This document shows, piece after piece, positions 2,023 to 3,973 of a stretch of DNA of 64,000 bases (its first letter is position 1; every line of letters starts with the position of its first letter). The notes beneath the pieces were generated by a model. The model did no database searches and had not been told where the DNA came from. It saw nothing but the letters and a program-made list of their open reading frames with translations. This DNA is from Phocaeicola salanitronis DSM 18170 (GTDB taxonomy: Bacteria; Bacteroidota; Bacteroidia; Bacteroidales; Bacteroidaceae). The stretch covers positions 3,182,501-3,246,500 of the forward strand of contig NC_015164.1 in the NCBI RefSeq assembly GCF_000190575.1, in the 5' to 3' direction. A program made the position numbers and the translations under genes.

Positions 2023-3336
2023 ATGGGAAATTTAGTAGCAATCGTAGGACGTCCCAATGTGGGAAAGTCGACACTGTTTAACCGCTTGACAAAGACACGT
2101 CAGGCTATTGTGAACGAGCAGGCCGGTACAACCCGCGATCGCCAGTACGGAAAGTCTGAATGGCAAGGAAAAGAGTTTTCGGTGGTAGATACCGGCGGGT
2201 GGGTTGTTAATTCGGATGATATTTTTGAAGAAGAAATCCGGAAACAGGTAATTTTAGCCATGGATGAAGCGGATGTCATTCTTTTCTTGGTGGATGTAAA
2301 GAATGGAGTGACGGACTTGGATATGGATGTTGCCGCAATTTTGCGCAGGTCGAAGAAGCCGGTGATTGTGGTGGCAAACAAGACGGATAATAATGACTTG
2401 CAATACAATGCTGCGGAATTTTATTCTTTGGGACTGGGAGAGCCTTATTGCATTTCTGCATTGAGCGGAAGCGGCACCGGTGATTTGCTGGACTTGATAT
2501 TAAGCAAATTCCGGAAAGAAGCCGATGAAGAGTTGGATGAGGAAATTCCTCGTTTTGCCGTTGTAGGGCGTCCTAACGCAGGCAAATCATCTCTTATTAA
2601 TGCTTTTGTCGGTGAAGAGCGGAATATCGTGACTGAGATTGCCGGAACGACCCGTGATTCGATTTATACGCGTTACGATAAATTCGGCTTCGATTTTTAT
2701 TTGGTAGACACTGCCGGCATCCGGAAAAAGAATAAGGTAAACGAAGATTTGGAATATTATTCTGTTATCCGTTCCATTCGTGCTATCGAAAATTCAGATG
2801 TATGCATTCTGATGCTGGATGCTACCAGAGGCATCGAAGGCCAGGACCTGAATATCTTTTCATTGATACAGCGCAACCAAAAAGGATTGGTGGTGGTTGT
2901 CAATAAATGGGATTTGGTGGAAGAGAAGTCCGCGAAAGTCATGAAGACTTACGAAACCGCGATTCGCAACCGTCTTGCTCCTTTTACGGATTTCCCGATT
3001 ATATTTGCTTCTGCCCTTACCAAGCAGCGTATTTTTAAAGTATTGGAAACGGCAAAAGAAGTATATCAGGCACGTACGACACGCATCTCTACAGCCCGTT
3101 TGAATGAAGCGTTGCTGCCTTTGATTGAAGCTTATCCGCCTCCCTCGAATAAAGGGAAATACATCAAGATTAAATATATTACGCAGTTGCCGAACACACA
3201 GGTTCCTTCTTTCATCTTCTTTGCCAATTTGCCGCAATACGTCAAGGAGCCTTACAAGCGTTTCCTTGAGAATCAGATACGGGAACGGTGGAAATTGTCA
3301 GGCACGCCGATTAATATATTTATTCGGCAGAAATAA
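2023..3336 (+). CDS. der: Ribosome biogenesis GTPase Der (EngA)
   Basis: Der has two tandem GTPase domains and acts in late 50S assembly. The first G1 motif is GRPNVGKST near residue 8 and the second is GRPNAGKSS near residue 183; both domains have NKTD/NKWD-type G4 motifs. A C-terminal KH-like domain follows ([18 protein letters not shown]). The length of 437 aa matches the family. It sits just after era, and the pair probably forms one transcript. Convergent minus-strand transcription comes from the RNA gene downstream. Confidence 0.96.
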
Positions 3337-3362: not shown

Positions 3363-3390
3363 TAGAGACGTCACATGGGTGGCGTCTCTA
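3363..3390. repeat. TAGAGACG interspersed palindrome, copy 1
   Basis: TAGAGACG and CGTCTCTA form an 8-bp inverted repeat around a 12-nt centre containing CACAT, 26 nt after the der stop. Copy 2 at 31950-31990 has the same arms and a closely related centre. This looks like a REP-type intergenic repeat and may act as a weak bidirectional terminator. Confidence 0.7.
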
Positions 3391-3421: not shown

Positions 3422-3454
3422 AAAAAAGCGATAGTCCTCTTCTCTGACCACCGC
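3422..3454 (-). terminator. Terminator of the minus-strand RNA
   Basis: Read on the minus strand, GCGGTGGTC pairs with GACTATCGC (9 bp including two G-U pairs) around the loop AGAGAAGAG and is followed directly by six T. This is a standard intrinsic terminator and defines the 3' end of the RNA gene upstream of it. Confidence 0.75.
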
Positions 3455-3754
3455 CGGCTTCCAAAAGAACCCCCATTAATAGGGTTCTTGTTTCATCTTC
3501 ATTCAGTTGTTTGTGTTTTTTTGTTATCCTTTTTTCTTCTTTTTACCTCAAAGCAAATTCCTAACCTATGAAAACTGTAATTCCTGAAAACTTACCTTCT
3601 TAAATACTAATACCTAAAAACAAAAACATCTTTTTAAACCTAACTTAATACCTATTTGCTTTGAATGCTTAGTGCTTTTTATTTCTAATACCTTTAGTTT
3701 TTGTATGTTGTCTAATACCTATATTTGTTAGTCTTCTTGTTGGTTTCACAACCA
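3423..3754 (-). ncRNA. Candidate noncoding RNA with four AGGTATTA motifs
   Basis: A full Bacteroidetes promoter (3760-3789) and an intrinsic terminator (3422-3454) on the minus strand frame about 330 nt with no convincing ORF. The predicted RNA starts with a small GGUU-GUGA-AACC hairpin (GNRA-type loop). It then carries AGGUAUUA four times, at 3712-3720, 3685-3693, 3645-3653 and 3607-3615, in A/purine-rich, apparently unpaired sequence. A hairpin AAGAACCC/GGGTTCTT (3465-3489) precedes the terminator. The repeated motif suggests a titrating RNA or a protein-binding scaffold. It could also be a Bacteroidales 6S-like or other known family RNA that I cannot name with certainty from memory. Confidence 0.6.
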
Positions 3755-3759
3755 CGATG

Positions 3760-3789
3760 CAAAGGTATGGCTTTTTTTATTATCTGCAA
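3760..3789 (-). promoter_or_regulatory. Promoter of the noncoding RNA
   Basis: On the minus strand a -33 TTG (3787-3789) and a -7 TACCTTTG (3760-3767) are separated by exactly 19 nt, a full match to the Bacteroidetes TTG-N19-TAnnTTTG promoter. Transcription should start near 3753. An FNR/CRP-like box TTGAT-GTAA-ATCA lies at 3828-3840, centred about 80 nt upstream of that start; its role is uncertain. Confidence 0.75.
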
Positions 3790-3973
3790 TAGCTTAATGG
3801 CAATTATTATAAAAAATGCTATTTTTCTTGATGTAAATCATCTCATGTTTGTTAGAATATGTTTGAAAAAGCATCCTGTGTTCGGAAACGGTTCTCCCGT
3901 GTGCGATAACGCAGCCTTTTAATGGCAAATGTTATGTCAAATTACGCTTGCATCTTAACTTGCTTAAAACGTA

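Follow-up and report, generated by a model that had tools for sequence, protein, structure and literature searches.

The gap between der and nrdG-nrdD in Phocaeicola salanitronis DSM 18170 raises the question of what is encoded by about 330 nt of DNA that has a promoter, a terminator and a short word in four copies, and no open reading frame. The DNA analysed here (the window, 64,000 nucleotides of contig NC_015164.1, whose positions are used below) is part of a 4,242,803-base chromosome. In this region der lies on the plus strand and ends at 3336, and nrdG-nrdD, assigned by protein family, lies on the minus strand. A first-pass annotation of the window had placed an RNA on the minus strand of the gap and proposed that it titrates a protein or base-pairs with many targets.

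Anatomy of the RNA gene

The predicted RNA occupies 3422-3755 on the minus strand (about 334 nt), a region that is conserved from promoter to terminator in 19 aligned homologs. The promoter TTG-N19-TACCTTTG consists of a -33 element TTG (3789-3787), a 19-nt spacer and a -7 element TACCTTTG of the sigma-ABfr type (3767-3760) that is kept in the homologs; the predicted transcription start is G3755. The same simple scan that was used for terminators found no sigma-70 promoter at the locus, as is expected for Bacteroidota.

All further elements are on the minus strand as well. The transcript would begin with a 5' hairpin, UGGUU-GUGA-AACCA (3740-3755), followed by four copies of AGGUAUUA (AGGTATTA in DNA) at 3713-3720, 3686-3693, 3646-3653 and 3608-3615, i.e. 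with spacings of 27, 40 and 38. Next come a UUUUCAGG box at 3583-3590, which 36 of the 58 homologs share (0.018 per RNA on average in shuffles), and a AGGAUAACA box at 3522-3530, found as GGATAAC in 33 of 58 (shuffle mean 0.008 per RNA). The 3' part contains a first hairpin, AAGAACCC...GGGUUCUU (3465-3489, from the consensus fold of 19 homologs), and the intrinsic terminator (3422-3454), which is composed of a stem (3454-3428) and a T-run (3427-3422, T6). The terminator had been called clean in the first-pass annotation; its last stem and T-run are indeed present, but the simple terminator scan chooses the first 3' hairpin (3484-3471) instead of the last stem. There is no minus-strand ORF of at least 60 aa at the locus, and the longest ATG-started frame across 58 homologs has 27 aa. 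On re-reading of the sequence, the coordinates, the promoter, the absence of an ORF and the four-copy motif with its spacing of 27-40 nt were thus all as first described, and the 5' hairpin and an upstream operator are additions to that description. In addition, a near-perfect inverted repeat, TAGAGACG...CGTCTCTA, was read by eye at 3363-3390, 3' of der, where it is probably the der terminator.

Judged by its conservation, the minus-strand locus is almost certainly a transcribed RNA gene, and its anatomy is that of a stand-alone one, with a Bacteroidota-type promoter, four copies of AGGUAUUA, a terminator and no ORF. An already known RNA, be it a housekeeping RNA or another Rfam member (6S, Bacteroidales-1 etc.), had been named as the main alternative and would fit in terms of length and conservation. 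In the Rfam covariance search, however, nothing in the window reached the gathering score, and permissive scans, run on the locus and on five loci of homologs, returned only noise, so that this explanation has very nearly no probability left.

Conservation and distribution

When 60 related genomes were searched by blastn with 401 bases, 37 had a match, some of these matches being promoter or tRNA-leader pieces only (L031, L036); 19 full-length homologs can be aligned from the promoter through the terminator. Of 199 genomes of the family, 27 were hit by a covariance model built on the 3' part of the RNA, namely 26 Phocaeicola, P. salanitronis included, and one genome of a second genus. This genus is Bacteroides, since several copies are identical to those in named Bacteroides records (14 stretches, B. 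xylanisolvens XB1A, B. acidifaciens and B. congonensis among them). When Bacteroides was searched by blastn with its own copy, 15 of 60 genomes had a match, one of them (G249) by a 36-base end only. By anatomy, i.e. with patterns for the 5' end, the hairpin and the terminator, 58 distinct homologs were gathered from Phocaeicola and Bacteroides, a count that does not include homologs missed by the patterns (e.g. L016, L024, L083, L084). The homolog searches began from this form of the RNA.

A looser 5'-hairpin pattern gave 22 matches in 19 of 392 order-level genomes, against 15 for the reversed control. Eight of these loci were read: one is a homolog from Bacteroides (L304, of the second class described below), five are tRNA leaders and two are coding. 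Three further matches (L288, L289, L290) coincide with the places of known copies of the RNA. No homolog outside Bacteroidaceae was seen, with 11 of these 22 matches accounted for, and searches of phage and plasmid records gave no match.

The neighbouring genes differ among the 58 homologs: 27 lie beside nrdG/nrdD, 18 beside mnmG and 2 beside galE, while 11 have none of the five genes queried as a neighbour. The RNA adjoins nrdG/nrdD in Phocaeicola and mnmG in Bacteroides (e.g. in B. congonensis and B. bouchesdurhonensis), where its predicted length is about 210-295 nt, and operator, promoter and RNA travel together; given this variety of neighbours, the RNA is not the leader of one gene. In three Phocaeicola genomes an additional copy of the RNA lies at most about 2 kb from galE, a gene that is also among the candidate targets (L065 at G146:C45, L066 at G017:C47, and G027:C178). 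Bacteroides also contains a second class of the RNA (L082, L083-L087, L304), with a GCAGUUGGGAAAUUGC hairpin, a GAAAAGCC/GGCUUUUC hairpin and fewer copies of AGGUAUUA.

As far as the sequences go, the family is conserved across two genera of Bacteroidaceae, and it is apparently undescribed: partial literature searches found no published description of the word or of the RNA, and a B. thetaiotaomicron ortholog, if one exists, may be numbered among the BTnc RNAs in Theta-Base.

The upstream operator

A Crp/Fnr-type palindrome, TGATTTACATCA, is found on the minus strand at 3829-3840, with its centre at about -79 from the predicted start; the extended operator is ATGATTTACATCAAGAAAAA (3841-3822). 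The pattern TGA[TC]N4[AG]TCA occurs upstream of all 53 main-class homologs that have upstream sequence, in 50 of them at -79 and in three at most 2 bases off, whereas in shuffled upstream regions a mean of 0.72 and a maximum of 3 of 58 carry it. The homologs not in the 53 are L022, with 29 bases upstream only, and four copies of the second class (L082, L085, L086, L087). Together with the A-tract on its downstream side, the operator is near-unique in 1.664 Mb of the genome, where it scores 25.8 (the site is in the training set) and the next best site 16.1.

The FNR box is TTGAT-N4-ATCAA, and the operator of the RNA matches it. It is unlike the Cur consensus, which PMC6989115 and PMC3878776 give as TATGTTnTAnAACATA; the nTAn centre is common to both. 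In the second class, L082 has at -61 a site that agrees with the Cur palindrome at every position (0 mismatches), a match equalled in 0 of 200 shuffles; the six other promoters of this class show 3-4 mismatches, which 4 to 50 of 200 shuffles equal. The conserved palindrome suggests that the RNA is switched by a transcription factor of the Crp/Fnr family, the regulator being presumed from the operator. A weaker FNR-like palindrome is located about 70 bases before a TACCTTTG promoter that precedes a gene for an MFS-like transporter, so named from inspection by eye (L221:4940, chromosome position about 3604940); this gene is a possible second member of the regulon.

RNA structure

The 5' hairpin covaries across the homologs, as judged from 58 sequences (18 distinct). 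Its co-changes are GUGGUU/AACCAC, GUAGUU/AACUAC and GCAGUU/AAUUGC, and the 18 distinct sequences contain 12 cells with a change on both sides, against 4.4 +/- 2.7 in shuffles (0 of 500 as high) and 0-3 in slid controls. Two other measures for this hairpin were not above shuffles: 3 of its pairs change on both sides (139 of 500 shuffles as high), and there are 7 further pair types (254 of 500 as high). Five pairs of the terminator stem show both-sided changes, but in 5-6 of the 19 sequences three of these five do not pair. The pairing of the first 3' hairpin is kept in three forms, i.e. AAGAACCC/GGGUUCUU, AGAAUCCC/GGGAUUCU in Bacteroides, and AAAAGCC/GGCUUUU in the second class.

The full RNA of the window does not stand out in its fold (z -1.41), which 9 of 100 shuffles equal. 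The central region is weakly structured because it is nearly C-free (4% C); its folding does not exceed that of shuffles (mean z +0.32, 20 RNAs). The motif copies had first been placed in a mostly unpaired context, which holds less strongly than described, since their mean unpaired probability is 0.44 against 0.48 for the remaining central region and they are the more open part in 19 of 55 RNAs.

The repeated word

The word AGGTATTA occurs 6 times on the two strands of the window against 1.64 expected, and 0 of 100 shuffles have 6 or more. Genome-wide there are 140 copies (77+63) in 4.3 Mb, a density that predicts about 0.005 per 334-nt strand; the RNA has four, inside 113 bases. No second stretch with at least four of the RNA's words inside 220 bases was found in 864 kb of the genome. 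A short intergenic stretch beside a terminator elsewhere on the chromosome (L008, 1721455-1721547) has AGGTATTAG, AAGGTAAAAAG and TTTTCAGGATAACG in the order seen in the RNA.

The 58 distinct homologs have a mean of 2.90 copies of AGGTATTA against 0.034 in dinucleotide shuffles; at least one copy is present in 55, at least two in 50 and at least three in 34, and the homologs without any copy are L050, L082 and L091. The AGGUAUUA array is, at the level of sequence, a conserved hallmark of this RNA gene. Moreover, the 9-nt core is strict: AGGTATTAG occurs 142 times in exact form, against 69 single-substitution variants, 26 of which differ at position 9.

Such a pattern may be read as a CsrB-like sponge or scaffold, in which the AGGUAUUA(G) repeats titrate a sequence-specific RNA-binding protein without an RRM. 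A strict 9-nt word, a variable spacing (14-146 nt across the homologs) and an unstructured, nearly C-free strand are the usual look of a protein array and equally expected of a sponge, and this is the main rival of the base-pairing reading. We consider it rather unlikely, if by no means negligible: no candidate protein was identified, and a pure protein sponge does not predict that the complement of the word is in excess at start codons, the observation to which we now turn.

The complement of the word at start codons

The reading we favour, which we hold tentatively and at a little under an even chance, is that of an sRNA under Crp/Fnr control that acts by base-pairing and carries the same seed several times in an array. 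According to this proposal, the RNA would be a stand-alone, trans-acting sRNA of Bacteroidaceae under a transcription factor of the Crp/Fnr family. The 5' hairpin and the two 3' hairpins would cap and terminate the transcript, and the nearly C-free, weakly structured middle strand would display several copies of the seed AGGUAUUA(G). The GGUAUUA part of the seed would pair with UAAUACC at -25 to -7 of mRNA start codons and block the entry of the ribosome; several of the targets would be mRNAs of sugar and energy metabolism, and multiple identical seeds would raise the valency. Gene anatomy, conservation, operator, motif array and the excess of UAAUACC at initiation regions can be read from the sequences; transcription, the identity of the regulator, pairing in the cell and repression are inferred. 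To our knowledge, Bacteroidota lack the usual RNA chaperones.

In a first sample of genes, which itself suggested the word and the -25 to -7 interval, TAATACC was present in this interval of 8 genes against a mean of 1.6 for words of the same composition (rank 2 of 210). In a fresh sample, for which the test was fixed beforehand, the excess was modest, with 4 genes where the mean was 1.5 (rank 8 of 210). Pooled, the word is found at 12 of 1,227 starts against 2.4 expected from a second-order Markov model (Poisson 8e-6, uncorrected), and ranks 10th of 551 words with at least 8 occurrences, near Shine-Dalgarno words. It is this excess that makes us lean towards base-pairing with many targets, i.e. 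towards the second of the two roles first proposed. According to Pfam the 12 site-bearing genes encode an alpha-L-fucosidase, an acetyl-CoA hydrolase, an MFS transporter, an ETF subunit, a GalE-like epimerase, a class-V aminotransferase, a GH3 enzyme, a TonB plug protein, a DnaJ/TerB protein and three products without a family, one of which (L139) is a doubtful ORF. pfkA was considered as a target and rejected, as its TAATACC is part of a promoter.

For two candidate targets the site was compared between genomes. Of 29 genomes, 7 have an exact TAATACC upstream of the acetyl-CoA hydrolase gene, its position varying; for galE the number is 4 of 28, P. salanitronis being included in both counts. 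The exact word was not seen in the other 22 of 29 and 24 of 28 rows, respectively; four of the 22 hydrolase rows (G171, G017, G208, G011) are read at a wrong start, and eight more rows of the hydrolase set at an ATG a few codons inside. Two genomes without a match to the RNA gave 1 site in 309 genes against about 0.7 expected, which is too few for a control.

The predicted pairing energies do not single out the motif. The native RNA pairs with 200 initiation regions better than dinucleotide shuffles do (0 of 20 as good), but when the four motifs were scrambled the mean pairing was unchanged or slightly stronger (5 of 5 scrambles), hence the excess of the native RNA is not due to the motif. This result counts in favour of the protein sponge; the scramble test has little power, as only about 1% of starts carry UAAUACC. 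The word AACCATT is just as enriched at -25 to -7 of the starts in this genome (19 against 3.3 expected) and has no known sRNA partner, so that UAAUACC may itself serve as a translation element.

The repeats of a conserved RNA gene might also act in some other way, e.g. by pairing with another sRNA or with rRNA. The fact that no partner was identified by any test leaves room for such a role, for which there is no positive evidence, and we regard it as improbable. A bolder form of the base-pairing reading is a post-transcriptional regulon built on one word, in which a Crp/Fnr-type factor would control an RNA with an array of 8-9-nt seeds, and these would recognize a UAAUACC box by the starts of dozens of mRNAs, in a so far undescribed family of Bacteroidaceae. 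This is conceivable, and we would put it at clearly below an even chance.

Relation to FopS, GibS and RbpB

According to PMC11697453, FopS sRNAs are about 65-70 nt long and consist of a single R1' seed, which is 5'-terminal, and a terminator after it; the R1' seed of FopS and GibS contains GUAUUAG, and both kinds of RNA bind the RRM protein RbpB. Compared with the descriptions in that paper and in PMC7366714, the RNA studied here resembles them in its occurrence in Bacteroidaceae, its promoter type and the presence of GUAUUAG in a single-stranded region. It differs from FopS in its length of about 334 nt, a 5' hairpin that comes first, four copies of AGGUAUUA, hairpins of its own and the FNR-like operator.

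The common word makes it conceivable that the RNA is a ligand or a decoy of RbpB. The FopS R1' consensus includes AGUAUUAGAUUUAAGGU (PMC11697453), at least 17 of the 23 R1' core bases are matched in 18 of 58 homologs against 8 of 580 shuffles, and the GUAGGAUA that RbpB is reported to prefer (PMC12119571, quoting Adams 2021) is close to the AGGAUAACA box. The distribution of RRM proteins speaks against it. PF00076 (RRM_1) had no match in the genome of the window, and 2 of 14 control genomes matched, the control B. ihuae being positive; within Phocaeicola there was no match in 21 of 29 genomes and a match in 8. In a comparison that covers 27 of the 29 genomes, all 20 genomes without an RRM match carry the RNA, as do 6 of the 7 with one (outside it are G286, without a match, and G287, with an RRM). 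As most Phocaeicola genomes searched have no RRM match yet carry the RNA, titration of RbpB or another RRM protein is disfavoured and cannot be the general job of the RNA; we find this role decidedly improbable. As for the sponge of the first-pass annotation, the array is conserved, and a protein sponge of another kind is conceivable. The 21 genomes without an RRM_1 match also contrast with the RbpB paper, which describes RRM proteins as conserved across Bacteroidaceae.

The GUAUUAG word would likewise be compatible with a FopS-like antisense repressor of susC mRNAs. Pairing was calculated for the initiation regions of 27 of the 30 SusC loci of the genome (L168, L172 and L173 excluded). The positive control, FopS R1', gave -15.6 against -10.3 kcal/mol (0 of 60 shuffles as good), and the consensus unit of the RNA paired slightly better than its shuffles (0 of 60 as good). 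The RNA's own four units, however, were not clearly better, with 24, 3, 36 and 55 of 60 shuffles as good, which leaves the susC reading with very little probability.

Seven FopS-like sRNA genes (L142-L148) are found in the genome of P. salanitronis itself, which has no PF00076 match, at about 1471397, 1910392, 2424516, 2629113, 2666318, 2759491 and 242740; six have exact cores and one has 3 mismatches, the control gave 0, and each has a promoter and a terminator by eye. These genes have no FNR-like operator within 160 bases upstream; their best score is 2.0, against 25.8 for the RNA.

Relation to other regulatory RNAs

CsrB and RsmZ are sponges with repeated GGA sites, most of which are in hairpin loops. 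The RNA is similar to these in that a trans-acting RNA would carry an array of one short word, but the word is AGGUAUUAG and not a loop-borne GGA, and the predicted pairing of the units is about that of the sequence around them. Two E. coli RNAs, FnrS and Spot 42, are stand-alone sRNAs under a Crp/Fnr-type site. Here the likeness consists of a conserved palindrome of this type at a fixed distance from the promoter and of candidate targets that are metabolic; the differences are the lack of an Rfam match, the operator position at -79 and the repeated seeds. The LhrC family of Listeria has several copies of a CU-rich seed aimed at the Shine-Dalgarno sequence. The RNA also has several copies of one seed, whose complement is enriched at initiation regions, but this seed, GGUAUUA, would be aimed at UAAUACC. 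By these comparisons, the RNA would work most like FnrS or Spot 42 in its control, and most like LhrC or CsrB in its repeated sites.

Significance

In the literature considered here, post-transcriptional control in gut Bacteroidota rests on few studied sRNAs (GibS, FopS, MasB). The findings suggest that the RNA is a dedicated RNA regulator of some gut bacteria of the Bacteroides group, with a partner that is at candidate level. The conservation in two genera, the strict word, the near-unique operator and the list of candidate targets make both the partner and the regulon of the family directly testable. Moreover, the presence of the RNA together with FopS-like sRNAs in a genome without an RRM match raises the question of which factor, if any, assists sRNAs there.
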